The notes beneath the pieces are model-generated. The model had not been told where the DNA came from and did not search any database. It worked only from the letters and a program-made list of their open reading frames with translations. Both the position numbers and the translations under genes were made by a program. From assembly GCA_024345305.1 (NCBI GenBank), contig BRON01000010.1, positions 1,532,577 through 1,596,576 of the forward strand: a stretch of 64,000 nt of DNA, in the 5' to 3' direction. Origin of the DNA: Mrakia gelida (taxonomy: Eukaryota; Basidiomycota; Tremellomycetes; Cystofilobasidiales; Mrakiaceae). Each line of letters starts with the position of its first letter. Positions within the stretch are counted from its first letter, which is position 1. Below are positions 38,088 to 64,000 of this stretch, in pieces.

Positions 38088-38101
38088 AACCGTATGCGCC
38101 C

Positions 38102-38194
38102 CGTTCCTGCTAGCAGGAACGGTCGATTCCGTCAAGTCGACTTGACGGATCCGTCAAGTCCGACCGTTCCAGCAGCCTTGACGGACTTGACGGA
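38102..38194. repeat. Palindromic cassette of unit A (tag CTTGACG)
   Basis: A 20-bp perfect palindrome CGTTCCTGCTAGCAGGAACG (38102-38121) is followed by CCGTCAAGTCGACTTGACGG (38129-38148). A 22-bp perfect palindrome overlaps it, centred on GGATCC (38139-38160). CCGTTCC (38164-38170) recurs next, then two direct copies of CTTGACGGA (38177-38194). The tag CTTGACG appears five times, in alternating and then direct orientation. Confidence 0.9.
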
Positions 38195-38673
38195 CTTTGC
38201 GTCGCTTCGTTCTCCCTCCTCCCTCCACCAAATCGCAAACGGGAAAAACGACCAGAGAGATCTACCTATGAAGCACAATGTATCAGAAGTACAGATTCAT
38301 ACGATAAAATCTGCATTGTCGACAGCGACTCTCCCGAGAGGTACCTCAAAACGATGAAGAGGGCGAGCTCGAGCTGACTGCCGCGAGTTCTTTTCGGAGG
38401 AGCTCCATCCTCTCTCTTTCAGCTTCTATGTATACTCGAGACCAAAACCGCAGATTGTAAACAGCTGGAGTCGTTGGTACATAGCTCTAGTATGTCCCGT
38501 AAAAAGGGCTTAGCTTTAGAGTGAAGATTTGCCGACGTCTCGAGGTTGAAAGGTATGAGCTCAAGCTCACCTCTGAGCTCCTTCTCCTCTCGCCCATGGA
38601 GCTGTGAGCCTTCTTAGCAGGAAAACCTGCTCGCTCGAAGGGGGATCGTGTTCTCTAACCCTACTTCTCAGGT

Positions 38674-39102
38674 TTGGATTTACTGCAACGACCCCCTCAC
38701 AGCAGCGACGAACCTGCCGATGGAAGAAGGAGCGTTCCGTTCGTTCAAGCTCAACATCGACCTCCTCCCTTCTCTCCCTGCTCTCTCGCTTACCTCCTAC
38801 AACAGCAGCTGCACTCTTCCTGGACCTCCTGCCTCTTTGATACTCTAGGATCGACCTGGGCGATGGGAGGGTGGTTTCATAAATTGGTGGATCTACAAAG
38901 CTGTGGACCGAAGGGGACGAGCTCCAAGTCAATCGCGTGTCTTCGAGGAGAAGTCGCGGAACTGCTCTCTCCCCCAACCACATCGACATCGACCTCTTCC
39001 CTTGACACCTTCCTTTCCATTTCCCACTTCCCCTACCACCAACTTGTCAGCTCCTACGAGGGACTAGCCTCCCTCCCCAGGACCCACTGGAGCAGTGCTT
39101 GA
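38674..39102 (+). CDS. Conserved frame of unknown function upstream of helicase A (possible 5' exon)
   Basis: 142 codons. The frame follows a TTCTCAG acceptor at 38671 and is kept in unit B (about 45015-45436) despite substitutions. The two copies share LAYLLQQQL, TWAMGGWFH, AELLSPPTTSTS and YEG.ASLPR.HWSSA, and differ by a six-base indel that keeps frame. Frame-preserving divergence suggests it was coding. I do not recognise it. It may be an exon of the downstream gene or a separate small gene. Confidence 0.4.
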   Translation: MDLLQRPPHSSDEPADGRRSVPFVQAQHRPPPFSPCSLAYLLQQQLHSSWTSCLFDTLGSTWAMGGWFHKLVDLQSCGPKGTSSKSIACLRGEVAELLSPPTTSTSTSSLDTFLSISHFPYHQLVSSYEGLASLPRTHWSSA

Positions 39103-39406
39103 ACGGCAGACTTGGTGAGCTCCCTCACCTTATCGCTCCCTTATCGCTTCCCTTTCCTTAACCCCTCCTCCTCTCGCAAAGGAAGGAGAGTCCTTTCTCT
39201 CGAGCTTCTATGTTGGGAGTGTATCCTCTGGGGTGTATAGAACCCACTGAGAACGTGGATGTATGCTGGGAAGGTCTCTCGTTGGAAGGAAGGAGGGAGG
39301 AGCTCGCCCGCTTGCTCATGACTCGGTCTTCCCCTCCTCCTTCCCTTCCCTCCTCCACGAGCGAGCTCGGTGCTGACCCTCTTTCCTCCCCTTCCCTCTC
39401 TACCAG

Positions 39407-42400
39407 GGACTTCTCCCCCACTCCTCCTCTACTTCTATCCATCCAACGGACCCGATCTACTGTCACAACCCTCTCGAGCTTCCTTCGAAAGCGACCTCAG
39501 CCAAACCTCCTTCCCCTTTGGAACCCTCGCTGAACGAGCGCTCGAGAGACCTTCTCGTAGGATTCAAGTGAGTCTTTTGCTTTCTGCTATGGAGGTGGGG
39601 GTAGGGAAAGGTCGGATGAGGTGTGATCTGCCTTTGGAAGGGGAGGGAAGGGAGGGGGAACGAAGAAGGAAGGAGGAGTTGCGAGCCCGAGCTGACCATC
39701 GTCCTTCCCTTCACTTCACTCGCTCTTCCTCCTTCCCCTTGCACTCTCAGGTTCTTTCTTTGATCACGTATGCTCCTCTCGCCTACACCCATCCTCCCAC
39801 ACCATCCACGCACCACTTGGTTTTGTTCTGACTCTTGATTGGCCTTCTCTCGTTCGTGCTTGAGCATATGAGCTTCCCGTGCCCGAGAGCTATCTGCCAC
39901 GGCCTCTCACCTTTCTCCTCTCTCTCTAAGGTCACTCAGCACATCAAGGATCGGCACCAAACTGAAGTTCTCCTTGCTGGAGGTTTCCAAGGTGAGCTCC
40001 CTCTTTCTCCATACGTCTCGCTTCTCACTGAACGAAGCACGAAGCTCATCTCCTTCCCTCCCTCTCTCTTTCCTCCCTCCCTCTGTCCCAACCTCCCCGC
40101 TCAGTTCTTCGTGGAGACGATGGTTCTCTGACCTGCCCTCGACCTCACTCCAACCCCCACCGATGCTCCAAGCCCTTCGCCCTACACAAACACTGGAGGA
40201 CGTGTACAGTCACCGAACCTCTCCATCCGCGCTTCCCTTCTCCTCTCGTTCACTCTCCCTCTCCCTCTCCCCAACCCGACGCTCCCCCTCCGCCAACACA
40301 GGATCAACAGGAGGAAGAGGAGAACGCTCACCTAGGGGATACGGAAGGGTTTGGTTTTGGGATGGACGAGGGGGAGGGAGAGGGAGAGACCGAGCGAGGT
40401 GGTGGCGAGGGAGTTGGAGGGAGTGCGAGTGGGTCGAGCTCGAGTGGGACGAGGAAGGGGAAGGAACGCGAGGTTGTTGTTGAAAGTGAGGGTGTTGGTG
40501 GGGAGGATGGGAACCTTTCGGAAGATGGAGGAGTCGGTGCTGCATATGGGATGGATGGAGTCGAGGGCGAGGTCTCTTCGGACAATGGTGAGTCTCTCTA
40601 GGTCACTCTTGTTTGCTCTCTCGCTCGAGAGTATGGACCTGTGCTGATCTTTAAACCCTTCTTCCTTCCATCAGGCTCAACAGCATCGGTGCCAAGAGAC
40701 GACGAAGCTGGGATTGGATGCTTCAGGAAACTCGACGTGGAAGGACTTGTCGCGTTTTGGAAAGGAGAGAGCCTCGCTTGTTCGTCCTTCATCTCCTTCT
40801 CTCCAATCTCTTGCTTCCCGATCCTGATCTTCCTTTCTCTTTCTCTCTCTCTCTCAGCCACGACCAACCTCCACGCCGCTTCTCTAGCCATCAACATGAG
40901 GATCGGTCTCGTCGTTTCCACCCACGAGGACCCGTACGGAGGAGGAGTCGCACCATCCGGACTCACCGCTCATCTACTCAAGTTCTGCCCTTCCCTCTCC
41001 TCCTCCCATCGAAAAACCCTCGTTCAAGAAGCAACCCATCTCCTCAATCTTGCACCTTCCCTCCACCACTCCATCTACGATCCCCTCTCCGATCGGACAC
41101 TCGCAAGCCAGCTGCTCCTCTCCAGACGGCCCACCTCGACCTTCCCTATGGTCGAGGGCATCGCCGTGAGGATGGGAGTAGGGTGTGGGAGCTGTGGTGT
41201 GGTCTGCAAGGATGGCGACTCCCTCCGAAGCCATCGTCACAAGAAGCACGGAGGAACGAACCTCGCTCCCACTCCCGCCTACTCCCAACGACTCTTCCCC
41301 GACGCTCACCTCCCCGCTTTCGCCGTTCCCCCTCCCTCCCACGACTCCACCAACCTCTTTCCTCCTCCCCCTCCCAAGGTCCCACGATCGGATCCCTCCT
41401 CAGCATCAGCAGCCTTCCTTCTCGAGCAGCAGAACGAAATACTCTCCTCCCTTCCCACCCCCAGCGACAAGCTCGACGATTCCCTCTACCAACAGCCAGT
41501 CTACCAGAACCCTCTCGGCTACGGCTCCTTCATCCGACCCTACCCTCTCGCCGTCCTCCGCTCAGCCATCTCCCCCGCCCACAACTACCGATCCTCGGAC
41601 AAGACTCGAATCGAAGACCGCGACCCTCTGCGAAACGTCTGGGTCCACGTTCAGGATCTCGCCTTAGGAGTTCGGAAGTACGGGACGAATCCGAGCGAGT
41701 TTGCTGTGGCGAGGAAGATCGGGATGGGGGACGGGTCGGTGCAGATCTCGGAGGACATGGTCGAGGAAGAGCGAGGAGGGAAGGGACCGACGAGGATCTT
41801 CAAGCCGCGGCTCGCGGATTCGACCCTCAAACGATACAGCAGGGATTCAAGCTCGCTCATCCTCTTTGCCCTCAGGGTCACGCCAACGGTCTACCGAAAC
41901 CCCATCCCCATCCCTCAGGGCGAGCTCGCACCTCCTCCAATCATCTCCCCTCCTCCCTCCTCCTCCTCCTTCACCACCTCCATCGACCTTCCCTCCTTCC
42001 ACACCACCGAGCGGATGGTACTCGCAGCCAACACCCTCCGTCAGGTCCTCCAGAGGGACGTCCTCGCCCAGCCGAACGGGGTCGTCAGAGGAGGAGGGAG
42101 AGGAGGAGTCGAGGAGTCGAAGGAGGTTCAGGACGCCCTCCTCCAGTTCCTCCTTGCGATCTACTCCCCTCGATACTCATCCACTCCTCCTCGGGGCCAG
42201 ATGGTCCTAGATCAGTTCCTAATCTGCCTTTCCCTCGCTGCTGGAGGAGGCTTTCGGGAGATCGGATCGTTCGGACCTCAGCTCGCGTCCTGCGAGTTCT
42301 TCGTTCGACTCGTCGTCTACCGCCTAGTGCTGGACGAGATTGGATGGGGAGAGGTTAGGGAGTTGAATGAAGCTGAGGTTGGAGCAGTGCCAGTGTCGAG

Positions 42401-44414
42401 AGGGTAAGTCTGTTGTCTTGATCGCTTCGGCGTTCGAAACGGGTCGCTCACCTCTCTTTCTCTCTTTCTTCTTTCTCAGTCTCGACTCGCCGCTCTTCGA
42501 CCTCGTCACAGCTCACCCCAACGGAGCTCAAGTCACACCCTTCGTCGTCCTTCGAGCTACTCGCTATCCCATCTCCCACGCCATCACCGCTGCTGGACCC
42601 GTCGTCTCCATCCAACCCCTCCACGACCCAGTTGAAGGCCACCTCCTCCCTCTCCTCTCCTACAACCGCTTCATCTCCCTCACCGCTATCGCCGACGCAG
42701 CCAAGGGAGCCATCGCATCAGCTGCTTCCTTGATCAAGACCCTCACCTTCTCGGCAGACCTCTCAGCAGTTGGCCGAACGATGGAAGGAGTGACGGTCGG
42801 AGGAGTTGCGGGAGAGGTTGGAGGATCGATCTTCACGGATCCATCAAACTGCATCAAGCTCGGGATACCTCGGAACCAACAGGCTCTCCTCCTCTCCCTC
42901 TCTCTCTCCAACTCCAAGCTCTGGATCTCAAACCCCTCGGATCCTCTCAAACCCCAGCTCAACCTTCCTCACGCCCGAGCCTTCCTTCACTCCCTCGCCG
43001 CCGCGAAGCTCAACGTCCTCGTCGCCATCCACCTCTCCTCCCCTGGAGGTCGAGCTTCGGAACTCGTTACTCAGCAGCTCACCCGAACGGTCGACCACGG
43101 TTCCTCTCTCTTCATCACCTCCAACCGACTCGCCATTCGTACGGAGGTCAACAAGACAGGAACGAAGACCATCCATCGCTTCGTGTCTCCGACCCTCGTG
43201 CCTCTCGTCATCCAGCTCTTCGGAGTCGTACAACCCTTCGCTCTCTACCTTCTCTCCCTCCTCCACTCTCTCAGCCCTCTGGACAACAACCTCGCCGTTC
43301 AGACCACCTTCAGGACGTTCCTTTGGACAGACGGTGTCGGGAAGCAGATCGTCGCCGCCGACCTCCGATCCCACCTCAAGCTCGCCTTCGTCTTGTCAGG
43401 CTCCTCGTCAGGAGTTGGGCTCCAAACGGTTCGGCACGCCGAAGTCTTCATCAGTCGGATCATCCTACCCCTTCTCGGATCAGACGCCAACGGACTCCTT
43501 GTCGCTCTGGAGACTCAGTCGAGCCAACGAGGCCACTCGCTCAAGACGGACGAGGCGGCTTACGGAAACACGGATTCGAGTGGTGGGATTCGGGACTTGG
43601 CTGCTTTTGGAGATGCAACGAATGCGATGAGGGTTGTGAGCCTGTATCAACTCGCGTTGGGAGTGGATCCTGTGAGTCTTCGCCTCCAGGCTCGTTCTCG
43701 ATCTTCACTCGACCCCTCGTTCTGACCAACCCTCCTCTTCCCCCTCCGCTACGCAGGTTCTCAAGATCGATCGCTTGCCCGACAGGCTGGATCTGTTTCT
43801 TGGGCGTAGCTCTCATCCGTCGGTGAGTCTTTCCTCCCTTCTCTCTTCTGTCGACGTCCCTCGCCTGACTGACGCGTCTCTCTTTCTCTCCTTCTCTTCA
43901 GCTCTCCTCCAAGCGTCCCTCCTCCTCTTCTCTCTCTTCCTCCCAACCTCTCTTCAAACGTCCCACACCAGTACCACCCTCCCCTCCTCCAGTCTCAGGG
44001 TACGACGACGAAGGATCCGAGCCGATGGAGCTAAGTCGCGACGACGCGGCAGGAGGAGGAGATCCAGTCTCGGAGGAGGAGGAGAGGATTTCGATTCTTC
44101 CACCAAGTGCGGTGGAAGTATCCTCAAGAAGCCGGACTCCTCTCGATCTCCAAGCTCTCACGGACGGTGTCGACTTCGACGACGACATGGACGACTTCGA
44201 CGGATCCAGTCCCCCTCCTCCTCCTCCTCCGCCTCCTCGCGTTCCTCCCAAACCCTCCCCTCTCCTCGTTCCTCCTCCCTACTCCCAAGCGGACGTCATC
44301 ACCAGCCTTCTTCGGGAGTGGACCGGCAACCCATCAGCGGAGCTTTACGAGAACCAGCTCGAAGCTGCTGCCAAGATCATCCGCGGAGGAACCGATTACC
44401 TTCTCAGCAGCCCC
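39407..44414 (+). pseudogene. Telomere-linked helicase, copy A (3'-truncated)
   Basis: Exons read: 39407-39567 (LELPSKATSAKPPSPLEPSL), zinc finger 1 from 39868 (CPRAIC...HIKDRH), zinc finger 2 near 40133 (CPRPH...FALHKHW) with an acidic Gly/Glu linker, then 40675-42404 with a third zinc-finger-like motif (CGSCGVVCKD...HRHKKH) and LADSTLKRYSRD. The next exon, from 42480 to about 43670, ends in SQRGHSLKTDEAAYGN, like the GHS...Y end of tyrosine recombinases. The helicase exon starts at about 43902 but stops at 44414, right at FLLSSP, just before the Walker A motif, because unit B begins there. The zinc-finger plus RecQ layout is that of fungal telomere-linked helicases; the recombinase likeness is an inference. 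Confidence 0.75.
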
Positions 44415-44429
44415 TAACCGTATGCGCCC

Positions 44430-44523
44430 CGTTCCTACGCGTTGGAACGGTCGTTTCCGTGTAGTCCACTACCCGGATCCGGGTAGTCCGACCGTTCCAA
44501 CAGCCCTTTTTGGACTACCCGGA
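44430..44523. repeat. Palindromic cassette of unit B (tag CTACCCG)
   Basis: The outer palindrome CGTTCCTACGCGTTGGAACG (44430-44449) has one mismatched pair. GTAGTCCACTAC (44461-44472) overlaps a perfect 20-bp palindrome ACTACCCGGATCCGGGTAGT (44468-44487). CCGTTCCAAC follows (44492-44501), then GGACTACCCGGA (44512-44523). Same layout as unit A, different tag. Confidence 0.9.
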
Positions 44524-45014
44524 GTTTGCGTCGCTTTGTTCTCCTTCCTCCTTCCACCGAATCGCAAACGAAAAACACGACCAGCGAGATCTACCCATGA
44601 AGCACAATGCATCAGAAGCACAGCTCTCTAGAACAAAATCTGCATCGTCGACAGCGATTCTCCCGAGAGGTACCTCAAAACGAAGGAGAGGGTGAGCTCG
44701 AGCTGACTTCCGCGAGTTCTTTTCGGAGGAGCTCCATCCTCTCTCTTTCAGCTTCTCTGTATACTCAAGGCCGAAACCGCGGATTGTAAAGAGCTGGAGT
44801 CGTTGGTACATAGCTCTAGTATGTCCCCTAAAGAGGGCTTAGCTCTAGAGTGAAGATTTGCCGACGTCTCGAGGTTGAAAGGTATAAGCTCAAGCTCACC
44901 TCCCAGCTCCTCCTCCTTTTTCCTATGCGAGTCTGAGCCTCGTGGTAAGAAAATTTGCTCGCTCGAAGGAGGAACGTGTTCTTTATATCCGGCCTCTGAC
45001 TAATATGTTTTCAG

Positions 45015-45436
45015 ATTTCGATTTACTGCTAGAGTCGTTGCGCAGCGGCAGCGAACCTGTCGATGGAAGGGCCCTCTCGTTCGTTCAAGCTCAACCCCCA
45101 TCTCCTCCCCCCTCCCCCTCCTCCCTCGCTTACCTCCTACAACAGCAGCTGGACTCTTCTCGGGCCTCCTGCCTCTTTGGTACTATAGGATTGACCTGGG
45201 CGATGGGAGGGTGGTTTCATACATCGATGGATCTACAAAGCCGTGGACCGAAGGGGACGAGGTCCGAGTCAACCGCGTGTCTTCGACGAGAAGTTGCGGA
45301 GCTGCTCTCTCCCCCAACCACATCGACCTCTTCCCTTGACCACTTCCTTTCCATTTCGCACTTCCTCTACCAACAACTTGTCAGCTCCTACGAGGGAGTA
45401 GCATCCCTCCCAAGGGCCCACTGGAGCAGTGCTTGA
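45015..45436 (+). CDS. Conserved frame of unknown function upstream of helicase B
   Basis: Counterpart of 38674-39102. It follows acceptor TTTTCAG (with CTGACTAAT branch-like sequence just upstream) and encodes DFDLLLESL...LAYLLQQQL...TWAMGGWFH...HWSSA. Same caveats apply. Confidence 0.4.
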
Positions 45437-45745
45437 ACGGCAGCCTTGGTGAGCTCCCTCGCCTTATCGCTTCCTCATCGCTTCCCTTTCCTCAACTCCT
45501 CCTCCTCTCGCAAAGGAAGGAAAGTCCTTTCTCTCGAGCTTCCATGTTGGGAGAGTATCCTTTGGGGTGAATAGAACCCACTGAGAAGGTGGATGCATGC
45601 TGGGAAGGTCTCTCGTTTGAAGGAAGAAGGGAGGAGCTCGTCGCTCGCTCGCTCGCTTATGACTCGGTCTTCCGCTCCTCCTTCCCTTCCCTCCTTCATG
45701 AGCGAGCTCGATGCTGACCCCTTTCCTCCACTTTTCTCCCACCAG

Positions 45746-48700
45746 GAACTTCTCCTCCACTCCTCCTCTACTCCTAGCCATCCAACGGATCCGATCCAAT
45801 TCTACAACCCTCTTCAGCTTCCTTCGAAAGCGACCTCAGCCAAACCTCCTTCCCCTTTGGAACCCTCGCTGAACGAGCTCTCGAGAGACTTTCTCGTGGA
45901 CTCAAGTGAGTCTTTCGCTTTCAGTTGGAGGTAGGGGAGGTGGGATGAGGTGTCACCTGCCTTTGCAGAAGGAAGGAGAAGGAAGGAGGAGTTGCGAGCT
46001 CGAGCTGACCATCGTTCTTCCCTCTACCTCGCTCGCTCTCCCTCCTTCCCCTTGCACTCTCAGGTTCTTTCTTCAGTACCGTAAGTTGCCCTCGCATACC
46101 TCAATCTTCTCATACTATCCACCCTCCACTTGGTTCTGTTCTGACTTTCGATTGACCTTCTCTCGTTCGTGCTCGAGCAGATGAGCTTCCCATGCTCAAG
46201 AGCGATCTGCCATGCCCTCTCACCCTTCTCCACCCTTGCTAAACTCACCCAGCATGTGAAGGATGTTCATCAAGCTGAAATTCGTCTTGCTGGAGGTCTC
46301 AAAGGTGCGCTTGCACACATCTTCTCCGTGTAGGTTCCGTTCAAGCCCAACACTCATCCCGTTCCTCCCTTCCTCTCGTTCTCCCTCCCCCATCCCTCTC
46401 AGTGCCGCGTGGAACCAACAGATCGTTCTCCTGCCCTCGACCTCACTCGGAACCTCACTTTTCCCGTACCCCAAACGCGTTTCATAAGCACTGGAAGATC
46501 TGCATCCTCACCGAACCTCTCCACCCGCTCTTCCCTTCTCCTCTCGTTCACTCTCCATCTCCCTCTCCCCAACCCGACACTCCCCCTCTGCCAACCCAGG
46601 ATCAGGAGGAGGAGGAGGAGAACGCTCACCTAGGGGACGGGGAAGGTTTTGGTTATGGGATGGACGAGGGGGAGGGAGAGGGAGAGACCGAGGGAGGTGG
46701 TGGCGAGGGAGTTGGAGAGATTGCGAGTGGGTCGAGCTCGAGTGGGACGAGGAAGGGGAAGGAACGCGAGGTTGTTGATGGGAGAGAGGGTAGTGGTGGG
46801 GAGGATTGGAACCTTTCGGAAGATGGAGGAGTTGGTGCTGCATGTGGGATGGATGGAGTCGTCGGTGAGGTCTCTTCGGACGATGGTGAGTCTCTCGCGT
46901 CCTGTTCCGTCACTCTCGTTTGCTCTCTCGCTCGAGAGTATGGACCTGTGCTGATCTTTAAACCCTTCTTCCTTCCATCAGGCTCAACAGCATCGGTGCC
47001 AAGAGACGACGAAGCTGGGATTGGATGCTTCAGGAAACTCGACGTGGAAGGACTTGTCGCGTTTTGGAAAGGAGAGAGCCTCGCTTGTTCGTCCTTCATC
47101 TCCTTCTCTCCAATCTCTTGCTTCCCGATCCTGATCTTCCTTTCTTTTTCTCTCTCTCTCTCAGCCACGACCAACCTCCACGCCGCTTCTCTAGCCATCA
47201 ACATGAGGATCGGTCTCGTCGTTTCCACCCACGAGGACCCGTACGGAGGAGGAGTCGCACCATCCGGACTCACCGCTCACCTACTCAAGTTCTGCCCTTC
47301 CCTCTCCTCCTCCCATCGAAAAACCCTCGTCCGAGAAGCAACCCTCCTCCTGAACCTCGCGAACTCCTTCAAGCACTCCATCTACGCTCCCCTCTCCGAT
47401 CGGAAACTCGCAAGTCAGCTGCTCCTCTCGAGACGGTCCACCTCGACCTTCCCTATGGTCGAGGGCATCGCCGTGAGGATGGGAGTAGGGTGTGGGAGCT
47501 GTGGTGTGGTCTGCAAGGATGGCGACTCCCTCCGAAGCCACCGTCACAAGAAGCACGGAGGAACGAATCTCTCCTCCGCTTCCGTTCACTCCCAACGACT
47601 CTTCCCCGACGCTCACCTCCCCGCCTTCGCCGTTCCTCCTCCGTCTCACAACTCCATCAACCTCGTTCCTCCTCCCCCTCCCAAGGTCCCACGATCGGAT
47701 CCCTCCTCAGCATCAGCAGCCTTCCTTCTCGAGCAGCAGAACGAGATACTCTCCTCCCTTCCCACCCCCAGCGACAAGCTCGACAATTCCCTCTACCACC
47801 AACCAGTCTACCAGAACCCTCTCGGCTACGGCTCCTTCATCCAACCCTACCCTCTCGCCGTCCTCCGCTCAGCCATCTCCCCCGCCCACAACTACCGGTC
47901 CTCGGACAAGACTCGAATCGAGGACCGCGACCCTCTGCGAAACGTCTGGGTCCACGTTCAGGATCTCGCCTTAGGGGTTCGGAAGTACGGGACGAATCCG
48001 AGCGAGTTTGCTGTGGCGAGGAAGATCGGGATGGGGGACGGGTCGGTGCAGATCTCGGAGGACATGGTCGACGAAGAGCGAGGAGGGAAGGGACCGACAA
48101 GGATCTTCAAGCCGCGGCTCGCGGATTCGACCCTCAAACGATACAGCAGGGATTCAAGCTCGCTCATCCTCTTTGCCCTCAGGGTCACGCCAACGGTCTA
48201 CCGAAACCCCATCCCCATCCCTCAGGGCGAGCTCGCACCTCCTCCAATCATCTCCCCTCCTCCCTCCTCCTGCTCCTTCACCACCTCCATCGACCTTCCC
48301 TCCTTCCACACCACCGAGCGGATGGTACTCGCAGCCAACACCCTCCGTCAAGTCCTCCAGAGGGACGTCCTCACCCAGCCGAACGGGGTCGTCGGAGGAG
48401 AAGGGAGAGGAGGAGTCGAGGAGTCAAAGGAGGTTCAGGACGCCCTCCTCCAGTTCCTCCTTGCGATCTACTCCCCTCGATACTCATCCACTCCTCCTCG
48501 GGGCCAGATGGTCCTAGATCAGTTCCTAATCTGCCTTTCCCTTGCTGCTGGAGGAGGCTTTCGGGAGATCGGATCGTTCGGACCTCAGCTCGCGTCCTGC
48601 GAGTTCTTCGTTCGACTCGTCGTCTACCGCCTAGTGCTGGACGAGATTGGATGGGGAGAGGTTAGGGAGTTGGATGAAGCTGAGGCTGGAGCAGTGCTAG

Positions 48701-51700: not shown

Positions 51701-52700
51701 GTCGTCTGGGACTTCCAACGGAAGAAGTCGCCGCTTTTCTTTTTGTCGACCACCCAAACGGGTTCGACCCTCGCTTCCGCTCTCCAAACAGCTGCATTGC
51801 CAAAGCACTGGAGGAGCAGCTCAACGATTTCTCGTCGGGAGACTGTGGGCTCTGTACGGAATGTCGTCGTCGTCGCGTTGCCCCTCCTCAATCTCCCTCC
51901 CTCCCCTCCCACCGAACCACCAACCTCCTCCCCTCAGCCATCTCTCCTCCCCTCATCAGCTCTCTCTTCCCTACCATCCCTCACTCCTCCGAGATCCCCG
52001 AAGCCTACCTCCAATCCCGTCAGCTCCATACTCAAGCAAACATCCTCCACGACGAACTTGCCCATCTCCTCCGAACCCTCGACTCCCTCTGCTCGTCGTG
52101 CATCCTCCTTCACCCAACCACTCAACTCTCTCCCAACGCCACCTCACTCCACAAGTACGGATGCCCCAGCAAGAAGAAAGAGTACGTTTTCGATTCTGTT
52201 TGCCTCTCCTTCTTGACCGCGACGCGTTCTGACGTCGCTTTCTTCTCTTCTCTCGCAGGTGCTCGTACTGTACTGGCTGCAACTGGAGGAGTCTCGAGAC
52301 ATGCGCAGTCCTTACCGCTCAACGCTCTACCTACTCCAACTGCTGTTTTGGATGCCTCTTCCCTATCTCGCTGCACGAGGAGGCGGCGGAGGGTGGGATG
52401 GGAGGAGGGTGTCCGTTCAGAGCTGCGAAGATGGTTGTTCCTCTTTGCATGCAGCTGTTCCGGGATCGGAGTTGGAGGGAGAGGGCTATCGAGGAGGGGA
52501 GGATTGGATCAGACTGGGGGTGGGTGTCTGACGGAGAAGGGATACTGCTGGGGACGAGGGAATATTACAAGTGGAAGATCACGAAGGAGAAGGACGTGGA
52601 GTTCTCGTTCTGGCTAGGTTTGCTCTCCCCTACACTTCCTTTCACCAACGCTGCTCTTCTCCTCCTCTGGTTCTACAAGACTGTCTCTCGCCCTACGTAG
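45746..52700 (+). pseudogene. Telomere-linked helicase, copy B (one frameshift)
   Basis: Zinc finger 1 is at 46181 (CSRAIC...HVKDVH) and zinc finger 2 from 46402 (CPRPH...FHKHW). An acidic linker follows, with in-frame introns at about 46887-46981 and 47088-47164, then the third finger CGSCGVVCKD...HRHKKH. A spliced middle region follows (48781-49971) ending GHSLKTDEAAYG. The helicase exon (about 50205-51529) has Walker A SPVGSGKTFLS, GDEAHTW (DEAH box) and FGFTKKELDAL. After the intron at 51530-51607 comes QGGGRGRD, like the RecQ arginine-finger motif VI, then a Cys-rich end (CSYC..C) and stop 52698-52700. A 5-nt insertion in a T-run near 51735-51741, compared with copy C, shifts the frame after RKKS. 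Everything before and after is open. Confidence 0.8.
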
Positions 52701-52730
52701 TAACTCGTGTCCTCCTAACGGTATGCGCCC

Positions 52731-52823
52731 CGTTCCAACGCGTTGGAACGGCCGTTTCCGTATCCCCAGGGATACGGATCCGTATCCCTCGAGCGTTCCA
52801 ACAGGCTTGCCGAGGGATACGGA
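52731..52823. repeat. Palindromic cassette of unit C (tag GGGATACG)
   Basis: Perfect palindrome CGTTCCAACGCGTTGGAACG (52731-52750). CCGTATCCCCAGGGATACGG is imperfect only at its centre. It overlaps a perfect 22-bp palindrome centred on GGATCC (52768-52789). CGTTCCAAC follows, then GAGGGATACGGA (52812-52823). Confidence 0.9.
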
Positions 52824-53302
52824 CTTTGCGTCGCTTCGTTCTCCCTCCCCTTTCCATCAAATCGCAAACGGGAAGAACGACCAGCGAGATCTACCTATGA
52901 AGCACAATGTATCAGAAGCACGGCTCCGTACGAGAAGATCTGCATCGTCGACAGCTATTCTCCCGAGAGGTACCTCAAAACGAAGGAGAGGGCGAGCTCG
53001 AGCTGACTTCCGCGAGTTCTTTTCGGAGGAGCTCCATCCTCTCTCTTTCAGCTTCTATGTATACTCGAGACCAAAACCGCAGATTGTAAACAGCTGGAGT
53101 CGTTGGTACATAGCTCTAGTATGTCCCGTAAAAAGGGCTTAGCTTTAGAGTGAAGATTTGCCGACGTCTCGAGGTTGAAAGGTATGAGCTCAAGCTCACC
53201 TCTGAGCTCCTTCTCCTCTCGCCCATGGAGCTGTGAGCCTTCTTAGCAGGAAAACCTGCTCGCTCGAAGGGGGATCGTGTTCTCTAACCCTACTTCTCAG
53301 GT

Positions 53303-53731
53303 TTGGATTTACTGCAACGACCCCCTCACAGCAGCGACGAACCTGCCGATGGAAGAAGGAGCGTTCCGTTCGTTCAAGCTCAACATCGACCTCCTCCCTT
53401 CTCTCCCTGCTCTCTCGCTTACCTCCTACAACAGCAGCTGCACTCTTCCTGGACCTCCTGCCTCTTTGATACTCTAGGATCGACCTGGGCGATGGGAGGG
53501 TGGTTTCATAAATTGGTGGATCTACAAAGCTGTGGACCGAAGGGGACGAGCTCCAAGTCAATCGCGTGTCTTCGAGGAGAAGTCGCGGAACTGCTCTCTC
53601 CCCCAACCACATCGACATCGACCTCTTCCCTTGACACCTTCCTTTCCATTTCCCACTTCCCCTACCACCAACTTGTCAGCTCCTACGAGGGACTAGCCTC
53701 CCTCCCCAGGACCCACTGGAGCAGTGCTTGA
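53303..53731 (+). CDS. Conserved frame of unknown function upstream of helicase C
   Basis: Same 142-codon reading as 38674-39102 in unit A, with no difference in translation. Confidence 0.4.
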   Translation: MDLLQRPPHSSDEPADGRRSVPFVQAQHRPPPFSPCSLAYLLQQQLHSSWTSCLFDTLGSTWAMGGWFHKLVDLQSCGPKGTSSKSIACLRGEVAELLSPPTTSTSTSSLDTFLSISHFPYHQLVSSYEGLASLPRTHWSSA

Positions 53732-54035
53732 ACGGCAGACTTGGTGAGCTCCCTCACCTTATCGCTCCCTTATCGCTTCCCTTTCCTTAACCCCTCCTCC
53801 TCTCGCAAAGGAAGGAGAGTCCTTTCTCTCGAGCTTCTATGTTGGGAGTGTATCCTCTGGGGTGTATAGAACCCACTGAGAACGTGGATGTATGCTGGGA
53901 AGGTCTCTCGTTGGAAGGAAGGAGGGAGGAGCTCGCCCGCTTGCTCATGACTCGGTCTTCCCCTCCTCCTTCCCTTCCCTCCTCCACGAGCGAGCTCGGT
54001 GCTGACCCTCTTTCCTCCCCTTCCCTCTCTACCAG

Positions 54036-57000
54036 GGACTTCTCCCCCACTCCTCCTCTACTTCTATCCATCCAACGGACCCGATCTACTGTCACAACCC
54101 TCTCGAGCTTCCTTCGAAAGCGACCTCAGCCAAACCTCCTTCCCCTTTGGAACCCTCGCTGAACGAGCGCTCGAGAGACCTTCTCGTAGGATTCAAGTGA
54201 GTCTTTTGCTTTCTGCTATGGAGGTGGGGGTAGGGAAAGGTCGGATGAGGTGTGATCTGCCTTTGGAAGGGGAGGGAAGGGAGGGGGAACGAAGAAGGAA
54301 GGAGGAGTTGCGAGCCCGAGCTGACCATCGTCCTTCCCTTCACTTCACTCGCTCTTCCTCCTTCCCCTTGCACTCTCAGGTTCTTTCTTTGATCACGTAT
54401 GCTCCTCTCGCCTACACCCATCCTCCCACACCATCCACGCACCACTTGGTTTTGTTCTGACTCTTGATTGGCCTTCTCTCGTTCGTGCTTGAGCATATGA
54501 GCTTCCCGTGCCCGAGAGCTATCTGCCACGGCCTCTCACCTTTCTCCTCTCTCTCTAAGGTCACTCAGCACATCAAGGATCGGCACCAAACTGAAGTTCT
54601 CCTTGCTGGAGGTTTCCAAGGTGAGCTCCCTCTTTCTCCATACGTCTCGCTTCTCACTGAACGAAGCACGAAGCTCATCTCCTTCCCTCCCTCTCTCTTT
54701 CCTCCCTCCCTCTGTCCCAACCTCCCCGCTCAGTTCTTCGTGGAGACGATGGTTCTCTGACCTGCCCTCGACCTCACTCCAACCCCCACCGATGCTCCAA
54801 GCCCTTCGCCCTACACAAACACTGGAGGACGTGTACAGTCACCGAACCTCTCCATCCGCTCTTCCCTTCCCCTCTCGTTCACTCTCCCTCTCCCTCTCCC
54901 CAACCCGACGCTCCCCCTCCACCAACCCAGGATCAGCAGGAGGAGGAGGACAACACTCACCTAGGGGACGGAGAAGGTTTTGGGACGAGGAAGGGGAAGG
55001 ACCGCGAGGTTGTTGAGGAGAGAGAGGGCGGTGGTGGGAAGGATAGGAACCTTTCGGAAGGTGGAGGGGTTGGTGCTGCATGTGGGATGGATGGAGTCGA
55101 GGGCGAGGTCTCTTCGGACGATGGTGAGTCTCTCTAGGTCACTCTTGTTTGCTCTCTCGCTCGAGAGTATGGACCTGTGCTGATCTTTAAACCCTTCTTC
55201 CTTCCATCAGGCTCAACAGCATCGGTGCCAAGAGACGACGAAGCTGGGATTGGATGCTTCAGGAAACTCGACGTGGAAGGACTTGTCGCGTTTTGGAAAG
55301 GAGAGAGCCTCGCTTGTTCGTCCTTCATCTCCTTCTCTCCAATCTCTTGCTTCCCGATCCTGATCTTCCTTTCTCTTTCTCTCTCTCTCTCAGCCACGAC
55401 CAACCTCCACGCCGCTTCTCTAGCCATCAACATGAGGATCGGTCTCGTCGTTTCCACCCACGAGGACCCGTACGGAGGAGGAGTCGCACCATCCGGACTC
55501 ACCGCTCATCTACTCAAGTTCTGCCCTTCCCTCTCCTCCTCCCATCGAAAAACCCTCGTTCAAGAAGCAACCCATCTCCTCAATCTTGCACCTTCCCTCC
55601 ACCACTCCATCTACGATCCCCTCTCCGATCGGACACTCGCAAGCCAGCTGCTCCTCTCCAGACGGCCCACCTCGACCTTCCCTATGGTCGAGGGCATCGC
55701 CGTGAGGATGGGAGTAGGGTGTGGGAGCTGTGGTGTGGTCTGCAAGGATGGCGACTCCCTCCGAAGCCATCGTCACAAGAAGCACGGAGGAACGAACCTC
55801 GCTCCCACTCCCGCCTACTCCCAACGACTCTTCCCCGACGCTCACCTCCCCGCTTTCGCCGTTCCCCCTCCCTCCCACGACTCCACCAACCTCTTTCCTC
55901 CTCCCCCTCCCAAGGTCCCACGATCGGATCCCTCCTCAGCATCAGCAGCCTTCCTTCTCGAGCAGCAGAACGAAATACTCTCCTCCCTTCCCACCCCCAG
56001 CGACAAGCTCGACGATTCCCTCTACCAACAGCCAGTCTACCAGAACCCTCTCGGCTACGGCTCCTTCATCCGACCCTACCCTCTCGCCGTCCTCCGCTCA
56101 GCCATCTCCCCCGCCCACAACTACCGATCCTCGGACAAGACTCGAATCGAAGACCGCGACCCTCTGCGAAACGTCTGGGTCCACGTTCAGGATCTCGCCT
56201 TAGGAGTTCGGAAGTACGGGACGAATCCGAGCAAGTTTGCTGTGGCGAGGAAGATCGGGATGGGGGACGGGTCGGTGCAGATCTCGGAGGACATGGTCGA
56301 GGAAGAGCGAGGAGGGAAGACCGACGAGGATCTTCAAGCCGCGGCTCGCGGATTCGACCCTCAAACGATACAGCAGGGATTCAAGCTCGCTCATCCTCTT
56401 TGCCCTCAGGGTCACGCCAACGGTCTACCGAAACCCCATCCCCATCCCTCAGGGCGAGCTCGCACCTCCTCCAATCATCTCCCCTCCTCCCTCCTCCTCC
56501 TCCTTCACCACCTCCATCGACCTTCCCTCCTTCCACACCACCGAGCGGATGGTACTCGCAGCCAACACCCTCCGTCAGGTCCTCCAGAGGGACGTCCTCG
56601 CCCAGCCGAACGGGGTCGTCAGAGGAGGAGGGAGAGGAGGAGTCGAGGAGTCGAAGGAGGTTCAGGACGCCCTCCTCCAGTTCCTCCTTGCGATCTACTC
56701 CCCTCGATACTCATCCACTCCTCCTCGGGGCCAGATGGTCCTAGATCAGTTCCTAATCTGCCTTTCCCTCGCTGCTGGAGGAGGCTTTCGGGAGATCGGA
56801 TCGTTCGGACCTCAGCTCGCGTCCTGCGAGTTCTTCGTTCGACTCGTCGTCTACCGCCTAGTGCTGGACGAGATTGGATGGGGAGAGGTTAGGGAGTTGA
56901 ATGAAGCTGAGGTTGGAGCAGTGCCAGTGTCGAGAGGGTAAGTCTGTTGTCTTGATCGCTTCGGCGTTCGAAACGGGTCGCTCACCTCTCTTTCTCTCTT

Positions 57001-60000
57001 TCTTCTTTCTCAGTCTCGACTCGCCGCTCTTCGACCTCGTCACAGCTCACCCCAACGGAGCTCAAGTCACACCCTTCGTCGTCCTTCGAGCTACTCGCTA
57101 TCCCATCTCCCACGCCATCACCGCTGCTGGACCCGTCGTCTCCATCCAACCCCTCCACGACCCAGTTGAAGGCCACCTCCTCCCTCTCCTCTCCTACAAC
57201 CGCTTCATCTCCCTCACCGCTATCGCCGACGCAGCCAAGGGAGCCATCGCATCAGCTGCTTCCTTGATCAAGACCCTCACCTTCTCGGCAGACCTCTCAG
57301 CAGTTGGCCGAACGATGGAAGGAGTGACGGTCGGAGGAGTTGCGGGAGAGGTTGGAGGATCGATCTTCACGGATCCATCAAACTGCATCAAGCTCGGGAT
57401 ACCTCGGAACCAACAGGCTCTCCTCCTCTCCCTCTCTCTCTCCAACTCCAAGCTCTGGATCTCAAACCCCTCGGATTCTCTCAAACCCCAGCTCAACCTT
57501 CCTCACGCCCGAGCCTTCCTTCACTCCCTCGCCGCCGCGAAGCTCAACCTCCTCGTCGCCATCCACCTCTCCTCCCCTGGAGGTCGAGCTTCGGAACTCG
57601 TTACTCAGCAGCTCACCCGAACGGTCGACCACGGCTCCTCTCTCTTCATCACCTCCAACCGACTCGCCGTTCGTACGGAGGTCAACAAGACAGGAACGAA
57701 GACCATCCATCGCTTCGTGTCTCCGACCCTCGTGCCTCTCGTCATCCAGCTCTTCGGAGTCGTACAACCCTTCGCTCTCTACCTTCTCTCCCTCCTCCAC
57801 TCTCTCAGCCCTCTGGACAACAACCTCGCCGTTCAGACCACCTTCAGGACGTTCCTTTGGACAGACGGTGTCGGGAAGCAGATCGTCGCCGCCGACCTCC
57901 GATCCCACCTCAAGCTCGCCTTCGTCTTGTCAGGCTCCTCGTCGGGAGTCGGGCTCCAAACGGTTCGACACGCCGAAGTCTTCATCAGTCGGATCATCCT
58001 CCCTCTCCTCGGATCAGACGCCAACGGACTCCTCGTCGCTCTGGAGACTCAGTCGAGCCAACGAGGCCACTCGCTCAAGACGGACGAGGCCGCTTACGGA
58101 AACACCGACTCCAGTGGTGGGATTCGGGACTTGGCTGCTTTTGGAGATGCAACGAATGCGATGAGGGTCGTGAGCCTGTATCAACTCGCGTTGGGAGTGG
58201 ATCCTGTGAGTCTTCGCCTCCAGGCTCGTTCTCGATCTTCACTCGACCCCTCGTTCTGACCAACCCTCCTCTTCCCCCTCCGCTACGCAGGTTCTCAAGA
58301 TCGATCGCTTGCCCGACAGGCTGGATCTGTTTCTTGGGCGTAGCTCTCATCCGTCGGTGAGTCTTTCCTCCCTTCTCTCTTCTGTCGACGTCCCTCGCCT
58401 GACTGACGCGTCTCTCTTTCTCTCCTTCTCTTCAGCTCTCCTCCAAGCGTCCCTCCTCCTCTTCTCTCTCTTCCTCCCAACCTCTCTTCAAACGTCCCAC
58501 ACCAGTACCACCCTCCCCTCCTCCAGTCTCAGGGTACGACGACGAAGGATCCGAGCCGATGGAGCTAAGTCGCGACGACGCGGCAGGAGGAGGAGATCCA
58601 GTCTCGGAGGAGGAGGAGAGGATTTCGATTCTTCCACCAAGTGCGGTGGAAGTATCCTCAAGAAGCCGGACTCCTCTCGATCTCCAAGCTCTCACGGACG
58701 GTGTCGACTTCGACGACGACATGGACGACTTCGACGGATCCAGTCCCCCTCCTCCTCCTCCTCCGCCTCCTCGCGTTCCTCCCAAACCCTCCCCTCTCCT
58801 CGTTCCTCCTCCCTACTCCCAAGCGGACGTCATCACCAGCCTTCTTCGGGAGTGGACCGGCAACCCATCAGCGGAGCTTTACGAGAACCAGCTCGAAGCT
58901 GCTGCCAAGATCATCCGCGGAGGAACCGATTACCTTCTCAGCAGCCCCGTTGGGTCGGGCAAGACCTTCCTCTCCCTCCTTCGAGCTCTCCTCGACCGCA
59001 GTCACCCTACTGGTCGTCTCGTCGTCTTCATAACACCCTTCCGCTCCATCCTCGCTACGCTTCACGCTCGATGTCGGAACAGCAGTCTCGACGTCCACAC
59101 CCACCCCTTCCCTCCCGAAACCCCTCTCGTCAGCCTCCGAGGTGTCCTCCTCATCTCGATCGAGCAGCTAGGCAACAAGCAGCTTCGAGAGGACCTCGCT
59201 TCCCTCGGCACCATAGGGAAAGTCCTCCAGTTCGTCGGGGATGAGGCTCACACCTGGGCGACTCAGTCGGATTGGAGGCCGTCGATGGGCTACGTCTCCC
59301 TCGCTCGACTCGCGCGAGCTCCCTTCCTCCTTCTCTCCGGCAGCTGGACTGAGGGAGCACGGAGACACGCCGGAACACTCCTTCACTCAACCCTCACCGA
59401 GCTCAACTTCCCTCTTCGTCGTCCTGGAGTCACGTTCCACGTTGTGAAGCTGGACTCCAGCGACGACGTCTTCAAGACGATGATGGATACTTTCGGGAAC
59501 GGTCACCTCTCTGCTCCTAGAGCTCCAGTCATCATCTTTGGATTCACCAAGAAGGAGCTGGACGCGCTACGAGGAAGGCTGGTTGAGGAGGCGGAGAGGA
59601 AGGGTGTCGAGGTGAGGACGGAGGTCTACTACGCGGTGACGGGTGTGGAGGAGACAAGGAAGATGGATGGAACGAGCAGGGATTGGGAAGCCGGAAGGAT
59701 CGACTATCTGTTCTGCACAACAGCGGGAATTCAAGCTCTGGACTGTCCGGTGAGTCAAACACAACCCCCCTTGCGTCGCGTCGGGTCAGGACGAGAACAA
59801 CAACCGAACTCTCTTCCTTCCTCTTCCAGCAATGCAACCTCGTCATCTTCCTTCCTCACCCAAAAGGATGGACAGTTTCCGAGCGCGTTCAGGGAGGAGG
59901 TCGAGGTCGAGACTGGGAGACCGTCGTCTGGGACCTCCAACGGAAGAAGTCGACGCTTTTCGTCGACCACCCAAACGGGTTCGACCCTCGCTTCCGCTCT

Positions 60001-60917
60001 CCAAACAGCTGCATTGCCAAAGCACTGGAGGAGCAGCTCAACGATTTCTCGTCGGGAGACTGTGGACTCTGTACGGAATGTCGTCGTCGTCGCGTTGCCC
60101 CTCCTCAATCTCCCTCCCTCCCCTCCCACCGAACCACCAACCTCCTCCCCTCAGCCATCTCTCCTCCCCTCATCAGCTCTCTCTTCCCTACCATCCCTCA
60201 CTCCTCCGAGATCCCCGAAGCCTACCTCCAATCCCGTCAGCTCCATACTCAAGCAAACATCCTCCACGACGAACTTGCCCATCTCCTCCGAACCCTCGAC
60301 TCCCTCTGCTCGTCGTGCATCCTCCTTCACCCAACCACTCAACTCTCTCCCAACGCCACCTCACTCCACAAGTACGGATGCCCCAGCAAGAAGAAAGAGT
60401 ACGTTTTCGATTCTGTTTGCCTCTCCTTCTTGACCGCGACGCGTTCTGACGTCGCTTTCTTCTCTTCTCTCGCAGGTGCTCGTACTGTACTGGCTGCAAC
60501 TGGAGGAGTCTCGAGACATGCGCAGTCCTTACCGCTCAACGCTCTACCTACTCCAACTGCTGTTTTGGATGCCTCTTCCCTATCTCGCTGCACGAGGAGG
60601 CGGCGGAGGGTGGGATGGGAGGAGGGTGTCCGTTCAGAGCTGCGAAGATGGTTGTTCCTCTTTGCATGCAGCTGTTCCGGGATCGGAGTTGGAGGGAGAG
60701 GGCTATCGAGGAGGGGAGGATTGGATCAGACTGGGGGTGGGTGTCTGACGGAGAAGGGATACTGCTGGGGACGAGGGAATATTACAAGTGGAAGATCACG
60801 AAGGAGAAGGACGTGGAGTTCTCGTTCTGGCTAGGTTTGCTCTCCCCTACACTTCCTTTCACCAACGCTGCTCTTCTCCTCCTCTGGTTCTACAAGACTG
60901 TCTCTCGCCCTACGTAG
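54036..60917 (+). pseudogene. Telomere-linked helicase, copy C (one frameshift)
   Basis: The exon order is as in copy B: zinc finger 1 at 54497, zinc finger 2 near 54762, a shorter acidic linker (in-frame deletion against A near 54,980), the third finger, then the middle region to GHSLKTDEAAYG near 58075-58110. The helicase exon (to 59751) has SPVGSGKTFLS and GDEAHTW. The last exons carry QGGGRGRD, FVDHPNGFDPRFRSP and the Cys-rich end, with stop 60915-60917. Two bases (GG) present in A and B are missing near 56319, so the frame changes after EERGGK and reads out of frame up to the next intron. The 3' part that is shifted in copy B is intact here. Confidence 0.8.
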
Positions 60918-60930
60918 TAACTCGTGTCCT

Positions 60931-61720
60931 CCTAACGGTATGCGCCCCGTTCCAACGCGTTGGAACGGCCGTTTCCGTATCCCCAGGGATACGGATCCGT
61001 ATCCCTCGAGCGTTCCAACAGGCTTGCCGAGGGATACGGACTTTGCGTCGCTTCGTTCTCCCTCCCCTTTCCATCAAATCGCAAACGGGAAGAACGACCA
61101 GCGAGATCTACCTATGAAGCACAATGTATCAGAAGCACGGCTCCGTACGAGAAGATCTGCATCGCCGACAGCGATTCTCCCGAGAGGTACCTCAAAACGA
61201 AGGAGAGGGCGAGCTCGAGCTGACTTCCGCGAGTTCTTTTCGGAGGAGCTCCATCCTCTCTCTTTCAGCTTCTCTGTATACTTGAGACCAAAATCGCAGA
61301 TTGTAAACAGCTGGAGTCGTTGGTACATAGCTCTAGTATGTCCCGTAAAAAGGGCTTAGCTTTAGAGTGAAGATTTGCCGACGTCTCAAGGTTGAAAGGT
61401 ATGAGCTCAAGCTCACCTCTGAGCTCCTTCCCCTCTCTCCTATGCGAGTGTGAGCTTCCTAGCAGGAAAATTTGCGCGCTCGAATAGGGAGCGTGTTCTC
61501 TATACCTACTCTCCTGACTAATATCTACTCAGATTTGAATTTACTGCTAGAGTCCCCTCTCAGCAGCTATGAACGTGTCCAAGGGAGGAGCTTCTTGCTT
61601 GCTCAAGCTCAACACCCACCTTCTCTCTCCTCTCGCTCTATACATGGGCCTCCCCCCGGTCCCTCCTTCTCCATTATGACTCTTTGGTAGTATGGGACCA
61701 ACCCCAGCTGGTTTTTATCT
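60931..61720 (+). mobile_element. Subtelomeric unit D, 5' remnant
   Basis: It begins CCTAACGGTATGCG like C and stays alignable through the leader and the acceptor near 61530 (CTGACTAAT...TACTCAG, then ATTTGAATTTACTGC). It becomes increasingly diverged and I lose homology at about 61,720. No zinc finger or helicase is present. Confidence 0.75.
60948..61040. repeat. Palindromic cassette of unit D (tag GGGATACG)
   Basis: Same sequence as the unit C cassette. Confidence 0.9.
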
Positions 61721-62424
61721 CTCGTCAAGGCTGGATGCAGGAGAAAATGAGCTCGATCGAGGTGAGCTCCACCTCCACCTCCTTCCCTCCCTTCCCTCCA
61801 TCTTCTCTCGTTTCGTTCTCCCCTCCTCTTGCTCGGATCGCGATGAGACTTGGAGGATATAGTAGGGCGGCTATGGAGCCTAGGCTGGTGGTCTCAGATT
61901 TTGAGGGATGTATACGGTTGAGGCTCCTCGCTCATGGAGTCTTGTTGAGCTTGACTCTCCTTCCTCCCATGCATCGCATGCTGCTGAGACTCTCCCACTC
62001 ACTCTATCTTCTCGTTCTCTCTTTCCTACCACTCTAGTATACTTCCTCCTCCATCGCAAACCGCTCCCATTGCACGCCTTGGCGCTCCTCTTCCTCCCTC
62101 GACCTCGCGATTTGATGCGCTGGCAGCTCGACCTTTCTCCTTCCTTTCCTTTGTCGAAGCTGTCGAGACGAGTTCTTGCTCCCTTTCCTCCCTTCTGGCG
62201 AATTCATACGGCTTATATATAGTGGGCCCATAGGTGGAGAAGTAGAGGGATACTGTAGGAGTGTTGGAAGGCCTCTCTCGGTCGTCGAGTCGGCTTGGGT
62301 TGAGCTCACCTCTCCTCCCCTTCCCTCCATCTCGACCTTGCCTCCCTTCGACGTTCGTCAGTTCTTCCCTGGCACTGCTATATGACCTACCGATGATCTC
62401 GTATCGCTTCGCTGACTCTCTGGG
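61721..62424. other. Subtelomeric stretch without a recognised gene
   Basis: C/T-rich with short frames only. No domain, tRNA or repeat was recognised. Confidence 0.5.
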
Positions 62425-63934: not shown

Positions 63935-64000
63935 GGGTTAGGGTTAGGGTTAGGGTTAGGGTTAGGGTTAGGGTTAGGGTTAGGGTTAGGGTTAGGGTTA
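63935..64000 (+). repeat. Telomere, 11 TTAGGG repeats
   Basis: 66 bp of uninterrupted GGGTTA units running off the window end, preceded by TGTT. Confidence 0.97.

Follow-up and report, generated by a model that had tools for sequence, protein, structure and literature searches.

A covarying three-hairpin cassette at the start of repeated chromosome-end elements in Mrakia gelida

Repeated elements and their cassettes at a chromosome end

We analyzed a window of 64,000 nucleotides (nt) from the basidiomycete Mrakia gelida (assembly GCA_024345305.1, contig 10, BRON01000010.1, positions 1532577-1596576) and searched the whole assembly of 34.86 Mb in 25 contigs. The right end of the window coincides with the contig end and carries (GGGTTA)n, indicating that the window is a chromosome end. 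Four head-to-tail units, elements A to D, span 38087-63934 downstream of a nest of Ty3 elements. Each unit opens with a palindromic cassette in which a short sequence tag recurs, and this cassette is the subject of the present study. Its arms remain paired in copies where the tag has been replaced, and it stands just inside a fixed start from which the element faces the chromosome end. The elements and cassettes are as follows.

Element A, 38087-44413, + strand: class 1 (helicase-bearing), 3'-truncated inside the helicase frame at the B junction (self-alignment and target comparison)
Element B, 44415-52713, + strand: class 1, truncated at the C junction
Element C, 52716-60930, + strand: class 1, truncated at the D junction
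Element D, 60933-63934, + strand: class 2, longest frame 139 amino acids (aa), 330-bp tandem repeats, flush with the telomere
Telomere, 63935-64000, + strand: (GGGTTA)n, chromosome end and contig end
Cassette A, 38102-38194, unstranded: hairpin I 38102-38121, II 38128-38149, III 38150-38194; tag CTTGACG
Cassette B, 44430-44523, unstranded: hairpin I 44430-44449, II 44456-44477 (mismatched), III 44478-44523; tag CTACCCG, first copy CGTGTAG
Cassette C, 52731-52823, unstranded: hairpin I 52731-52750, II 52757-52778, III 52779-52823; tag GGGATACG
Cassette D, 60948-61040, unstranded: identical to C; hairpin I 60948-60967, II 60974-60995, III 60996-61040
TAAC tip of element A, 38087-38090, + strand: preceded by C; the tips of B, C and D lie at 44415-44418, 52716-52719 and 60933-60936

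Element A abuts a truncated Ty3 element at its 5' end, and B, C and D follow truncated A, truncated B and truncated C, respectively. The sequence cut at the A junction continues in the window only within an upstream Ty3 copy. The continuation of the sequence cut at the C and D junctions is absent anywhere in the window.

A sequence-only reading of the window had described tag copies in the order minus, plus, minus, plus (arms m1, p1, m2 and p2) within conserved surrounding bases. The coordinates, the order and the surrounding bases are as claimed at all four cassettes. The same reading held that the tag is swapped in coordination at every copy. This fails in unit B, whose first minus copy is CGTGTAG rather than CGGGTAG; the first palindrome of this unit is also imperfect (CGTTCC TACGCGTT GGAACG). 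Since cassettes C and D are identical, the window contains three cassette types, not four. The palindromic cassette is thus partly confirmed: it is real, with corrections.

The whole genome was searched with the pattern GTATGCGCCCCGTTCC-N8-GGAACGG, allowing up to 3 mismatches. The search returned 75 cassette places, and the reversed control returned 0. Seventy-three of the 75 cassettes are no more than 35 kb from a contig end and point toward it. Sixty-two copies were read and 61 were parsed (the 62nd is a 42-nt fragment), yielding 30 distinct cassettes. Because the pattern included the arms of hairpin I, no evidence can be drawn from their constancy; the pattern left out the tags and hairpins II and III. 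The copies read fall into seven tag types, with arm starts TCCGTCAAG, TCCGTGGAG, TCCGGGTAG, TCCGTATCC, TGCGTACCC, TGCGGACCC and TGCGTATCC. Two copies (C1:18620 and C17:6274) are missing hairpin II. A mixed cassette type, represented by 2 copies, carries one tag in hairpin II and another in hairpin III.

Fold of the cassette and the way its arms change

The cassette occupies the first ~110 nt of the element, and the fold starts ~15 nt inside the tip. It consists of hairpin I (CGTTCC N8 GGAACG), a 6-nt linker, hairpin II (22 nt, m1/p1) and hairpin III (45-46 nt, m2-loop-p2), and the three hairpins can form on either strand. A third pairing, the GGATCC palindrome p1/m2, cannot coexist with II or III. 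The sequence-only reading had proposed two overlapping palindromes on GGATCC; the p1/m2 pairing is indeed possible, but the folds favor adjacent hairpins II and III. Likewise, GGATCC is conserved in the four cassettes of the window but not genome-wide, where GCATGC replaces it in 8 of the 28 distinct cassettes having hairpin II.

We made several observations on pairing. First, in the three-hairpin structure 600 of 610 base-pair cells (98.4%) were paired across 21 of the 30 distinct cassettes. Self-complementarity does not outlast tag replacement everywhere, the hairpin II stem of unit-B-type cassettes being mismatched at 1-2 positions. Second, 17 of 30 pairs changed on both sides, with 130 two-sided cells and 1 one-sided cell in the 21 cassettes. 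The sole one-sided cell is at C2:11504, where a MAFFT gap shifted the 3' arm of the row. Third, when the 3' partners were moved by 1-3 columns, pairing was 27-45% and two-sided cells numbered 2-23. The collapse in these slid controls indicates that the pairing of the cassette is beyond chance. Finally, the alternative pairings p1-m2 and m1-p2 were 98.9% and 95.3% paired, with one pair of the latter on a gap column.

Agreement among the arms extends beyond the window. Over 9 nt, distinct cassettes matched in 30/30 for m2-p2, 26/28 for p1-m2 and 20/28 for m1-p1, and hairpin III over 12 pairs was off-pair in only one of the 30 (C18:33822). Where hairpin II is present, 38 of 59 copies (19 of 28 distinct) have four arms that all agree over 9 nt.

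The folding of RNA and DNA was computed for four types on both strands. Folding z-scores ranged from -3.4 to -7.7, that is 3.4-7.7 standard deviations below the shuffles, and at most 1 of 200 shuffles was as low. Given that the signal is present on both strands and for both RNA and DNA, the fold tells neither the strand nor the molecule. A closing stem around the three hairpins (GCGC/GCGU) appeared in the folds but was rejected, as it had no two-sided changes. The hairpin I spacers TGCCTCCA and TGGAGGCA are mutual reverse complements, as a hairpin flip would leave (L019, L021 and L067 vs. others). The hairpin II loops CA and TG are also flip-like mutual reverse complements (L055 vs. window 52757-52778).

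The arm changes were compared in 15 of the 62 copies, aligned over 565 columns. Mean pairwise identity was 50% (0.50) in the tag columns vs. 87% (0.87) in columns 107-565. For the 35 pairs predicted in the cassette, 421 cells were unchanged, 9 one-sided, 89 two-sided and 6 broken; for the 103 pairs predicted outside it, 1396 were unchanged, 96 one-sided, 9 two-sided and 44 broken. The ratios of two-sided to one-sided cells (89:9 vs. 9:96) indicate that pairs outside the cassette change on one side or are lost, whereas the cassette does the reverse. A structured RNA spanning the whole first 560 nt was rejected because the predicted pairs outside the cassette change one-sidedly or break. Of the nine one-sided cells in the cassette, the closing stem accounts for 7 and the inner end of hairpin III for 2.

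Several pairs show three or four standard types, including UA to AU and CG to GC, changes that cannot go via a G-U intermediate and that lean toward copying. On a flank tree of 55 of the 62 copies (a quick tree, with two rows on very long branches), the tag changed at least 18 times over 7 states and the core changed 9 times. The core of hairpin I and the loop of hairpin III agree in all 30 distinct cassettes (15 and 15); six tag types are found with both cores, and the agreement holds in every one of them. The arms m1, p1 and m2 lie between this core and loop. As the tags vary between an agreeing core and loop, contiguous recombination is not an easy source of them. In unit-B-type cassettes, p1, m2 and p2 carry CTACCCG and m1 reads CGTGGAG or CGTGTAG; such cassettes resemble what arm re-copying caught half way would look like.

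Mutation by template switching, in which a single event can create or repair a perfect stem, has been described and is used to explain multi-base two-sided changes (PMC8794818). The sequence-only reading had left a choice between compensatory selection and the copying of one arm from another. The structure is strongly supported, and between these two the data lean to arms re-copied from one another rather than mutated base by base, given that two-sided changes exceed one-sided ones, that some changes bypass G-U, and that the flank tree requires at least 18 tag changes. Selection is probably still needed, because none of the 30 distinct cassettes has a break in the outer 9 pairs of hairpin III.

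Start, junctions and coding content of the elements

The copies start with TAAC[G/C]GTATGCG or close to it, with the variants TAATC, TAATG, TAAACG and TAACGGG. Tipped copies had 55 distinct upstream sequences; two were only 3 letters long (both end in C), and 53 were counted. All 53 have C immediately before TAA(C) (p 7e-29 at a local C content of 29.4%), and 33 of the 53 also have C at the second base upstream (p about 7e-7).

Target matches at 90% identity over 100 nt, ending within 10 nt of the join, were obtained for 25 distinct junctions. In all 25, the uninterrupted target reads C, CT or CTA right up to where the copy departs from it. Three of them scored 0 in the microhomology scoring, solely through the TAACGGG register. 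C4:11953 was removed by a pattern filter, and other target matches also failed filters. Where copies adjoin TTAGGG arrays, as two do, the target does not supply the C, which then belongs to the tip. Very short pieces of about 21 nt (twice), 42 nt and 142 nt stand ahead of full starts and may hint at aborted synthesis. The tip is in inverse telomere orientation and is therefore not simply a remnant of a telomere that the element inserted into. The repeats flanking FoTeRs are described as remnants of the telomere receiving the insertion (PMC12857005). The cassette is the terminus of a chromosome-end element whose tip resembles a telomere repeat, features beyond the picture in the sequence-only reading.

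The elements fall into two classes. Class 1 carries OrsD-like and helicase frames. Class 2 (element D) has no frame longer than 139 aa and is a non-coding form as judged from its reading frames. The two classes have both ends in common, and the shared 5' sequence is roughly 660-690 nt. The coding features of element C are as follows.

OrsD-like open frame, 55177-56892, + strand: Pfam match under its cut-off
DEAD/DEAH (SF2) helicase open frame, 58559-60433, + strand: domain match

Eighteen contig ends of known length have, within their last 2 kb, a match to a 575-nt 3' piece of D, and at five of these ends class 1 is outermost (C3 both ends, C5 right, C14 and C18 left). In those five copies the cassette is 11.4-11.7 kb away from the contig end; the distance is 4.6-12.5 kb for the remaining outermost class 1 copies. 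The full length of class 1 is likely 11.4-11.7 kb.

The DEAD match of the helicase frame has an E of 2e-6, and matches in the PDB were weak (HamB 0.0019, RecQ5 0.12). Protein homologues at E of 0.001 or lower were absent from the large protein set searched. Of the 28 genomic matches to a 237-aa piece of the helicase, 26 are at 99-100% identity, and this identity holds across different tags, including those of B and C. The coding DNA of A shares 99% identity with C. The OrsD-like frame continues in the C16 copy (L050:3053-5158) where that of element C departs, a difference due to decay or to an intron.

The element frames scanned gave no reverse transcriptase match, the last ~3 kb of full-length class 1 being outside the scan. 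Ty3 elements and telomerase-domain matches are present in the genome. RVT_1 matches were listed at 20 or more places: 18 at E 3.4e-39 or better, one at 1e-33, and one of the type without long terminal repeats (non-LTR). Nineteen of these are taken as Ty3-type by their likeness to the copies in the window. In the last 3 kb at the five contig ends where class 1 is outermost, a stretch itself unread, there is no RVT_1 among the matches listed. The non-LTR (R2/LINE-like) fragment, the sole one among the matches listed, is at C1:2140120-2140600 in a chromosome interior, and a second copy of it was not found in the genome.

Three other candidates gave no result. Rfam yielded no match near the gathering score and no ribozyme in window 37000-64000 and three loci. 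A telomerase RNA, which would have a conserved template of about 1.5 repeats, was rejected because the template-like CTAACCCTA near 38657 recurs in place in only 4 of 57 copies listed. A terminal inverted repeat between the ends of element D was also rejected, with matches of only 8-13 nt.

Further repeats lie nearby. The 330-bp tandem repeat of element D is at 62477-63327; C15 and C16 have class 2 copies with more of it. The nest of Ty3/chromodomain retroelements (13850-38087), in both orientations and near-identical (arms 99% alike), borders the element array on its inner side. A tandem repeat with a 169-bp unit (4.8 copies) is at 33293-34105.

Origin of the cassette and comparison with known systems

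The explanation we favor, to which we assign about an even chance of being right, sees in the cassette the left end by which a chromosome-end element attaches; template switching would renew its arms, and selection would act on the fold. A free or single-stranded element end, tipped CCCTAAC/GTTAGGG, would join broken or eroded chromosome ends via 1-4 nt of microhomology, and the distal element end would then carry the telomere. The hairpins would mark or hold the element end for the joining machinery. Synthesis making or copying the end would switch template inside the palindromes and rewrite one arm from another. Template switching between arms would keep complementarity as the tag drifts fast, and fold selection would remove copies losing hairpin III. 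To the observed start, polarity, microhomology, structure and pattern of change, this explanation adds by inference an intermediate, a polymerase and a role for the helicase. A more specific form of it seems less likely than not: an end-first mobile element without its own reverse transcriptase, whose telomere-tipped triple-hairpin end would be joined to broken chromosomes by microhomology and whose arms would be rewritten in each cycle, leaving end tags that change fast but stay self-complementary.

Several points weigh against this explanation. Two of five shuffle measures fail to clearly exceed chance: pairs with two-sided change numbered 17 vs. 14.7 in the shuffles (reached by 20 of 500), which is not clearly above chance, and further pair types numbered 24 vs. 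26.2 (reached by 472 of 500), which is not above it. The cassettes are related, so the change counts are not independent events. Whole-cassette exchange explains some of the changes, as C9:1677107 has the same flanks as C1:3231394 and a different core. The loop flips expected of hairpin transfer are thin (TGGAGGCA in 4 of 75, and CA/TG in hairpin II). As to the start, C1:18620 is without the TAA tip, other copies start TAAT or TAAAC, the enrichment of C at the third base upstream is weak (21 of 53, p 0.07), and C3:11448 has GGG between the target and CTAACG (target match 87%, under the cut). Two cassettes, C15:1069030 and C23:131257, are far from the contig end that they face; these may be old internalised ends or assembly joins. 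Finally, no intermediate molecule was seen.

A possible but less probable route is through RNA. An antisense RNA ending in the folded cassette plus GUUAG(GG) would be copied in trans by a reverse transcriptase onto a broken end, whose terminal C's would pair with the RNA tip in the manner of LINE and terminon 3' folds; the compensatory changes would then reflect selection on RNA. The fold adjoins a short telomere-like tail, as in the published account of terminons (PMC6431247). This route fits with copies that lose sequence from one end only, and with microhomology at the junctions. Among the outer 8, 10 and 12 pairs of hairpins I, II and III, an A-C off-pair on the sense strand, and hence G-U on the antisense, occurs twice (C1:4720 and C18:33822), and sense G-U is absent; however, the other off-pairs are of neither type, and sense G-U is found at pair 13 of hairpin III in 7 distinct cassettes. 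The near absence of one-sided changes is also unlike an RNA evolving through G-U steps. The genome could supply an enzyme from its non-LTR fragment or its telomerase-domain matches, but that fragment is interior, and the element frames scanned and the five class 1 ends are without reverse transcriptase matches within the scopes given above.

Subtelomeric recombination, by break-induced replication or gene conversion, might instead shuffle old cassettes, the palindrome being a functionless hotspot. The cassette does recombine against its flank on the flank tree, the helicase pieces are nearly identical genome-wide, and telomere repair in Pyricularia is described as copying other chromosome-end sequences onto failed ends (PMC8381367). 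Break-induced copying should, however, begin anywhere in the element, and the junctions read share one start base. In addition, the tags interleave with the core and loop markers, and they are much more variable than the flank yet remain paired. Already strained by the fixed start, this explanation seems improbable to us.

We consider it very unlikely that the tags are iteron-like binding sites of an element-encoded protein and co-evolve with its specificity. Several inverted copies of a short word near an end, agreeing four ways in 38 of 59 copies, would suit such sites, but the helicase piece and the coding DNA are nearly invariant across different tags (26 of 28 matches, and A vs. C), and class 2 element D has nothing longer than its 139-aa frame. 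Palindromes near telomeres are hard to assemble, but an assembly or sequencing artefact is scarcely credible given 30 distinct cassettes, of which several recur unchanged at different chromosome ends, and junctions compared with uninterrupted targets elsewhere.

The elements resemble several known systems in part. In yeast Y' elements, a helicase gene lies in repeated chromosome-end blocks. Telomere-linked helicase (TLH) regions of fungi likewise have a helicase gene in repeated blocks at many chromosome ends, and the position of the cassettes near contig ends agrees with them. Differing from TLH regions are the exact left end, the telomere-like tip in inverse orientation and the covarying hairpin cassette; membership in the TLH group, whose helicase gene is of the RecQ type, is not proven by sequence. 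The FoTeR paper tabulates full and truncated TLH regions and reports one short telomeric motif at the 5' junction of FoTeRs (PMC12857005).

Coding and non-coding classes with shared ends recall MoTeR1 and MoTeR2, which are described as having both ends in common and the reverse transcriptase only in MoTeR1 (PMC7367193). MoTeRs are reported to place the 5' end nearest the chromosome end (PMC7367193), whereas here the 5' end of the gene is proximal, with the helicase frame on the + strand and the telomere to the right. MoTeRs and FoTeRs are retrotransposons; in the elements here no reverse transcriptase was found in the sequence read, and most junctions are on non-telomeric sequence.

Terminons have a terminal fold beside a short telomere-complementary attachment stretch and form head-to-tail arrays of truncated copies; Penelope-like reverse transcriptases, a hammerhead ribozyme and pairing with the G-rich overhang are also described (PMC6431247). 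The fold and the telomeric tip are similar here, and attachment would be too. In contrast to terminons, the stretches searched had no ribozyme, the RVT_1 matches listed included no Penelope-like reverse transcriptase, and the telomere strand is the opposite one.

The maintenance of hairpins by template switching (Monttinen and Loytynoja 2022, PMC8794818) involves the same multi-base two-sided changes that keep stems perfect; it has been described for RNA genes, in contrast to the four interleaved arms at the end of a mobile element here. The open-licence literature, covered by titles and the starts of abstracts among the top matches and with most subscription papers outside it, gave no covarying palindromic end of a telomere-helicase element.

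The arms of parvovirus terminal palindromes copy each other. Compared with parvovirus ends, flips are rare here, and no Rep protein or closed hairpin end turned up, neither having been specifically searched.

The cassettes provide a natural record, within one genome, of hairpins that stay perfect as their sequence is replaced, a process usually argued from few events in RNA genes. They also suggest that helicase-bearing blocks cap many fungal chromosome ends via an exact, reusable attachment end, and not through recombination alone.

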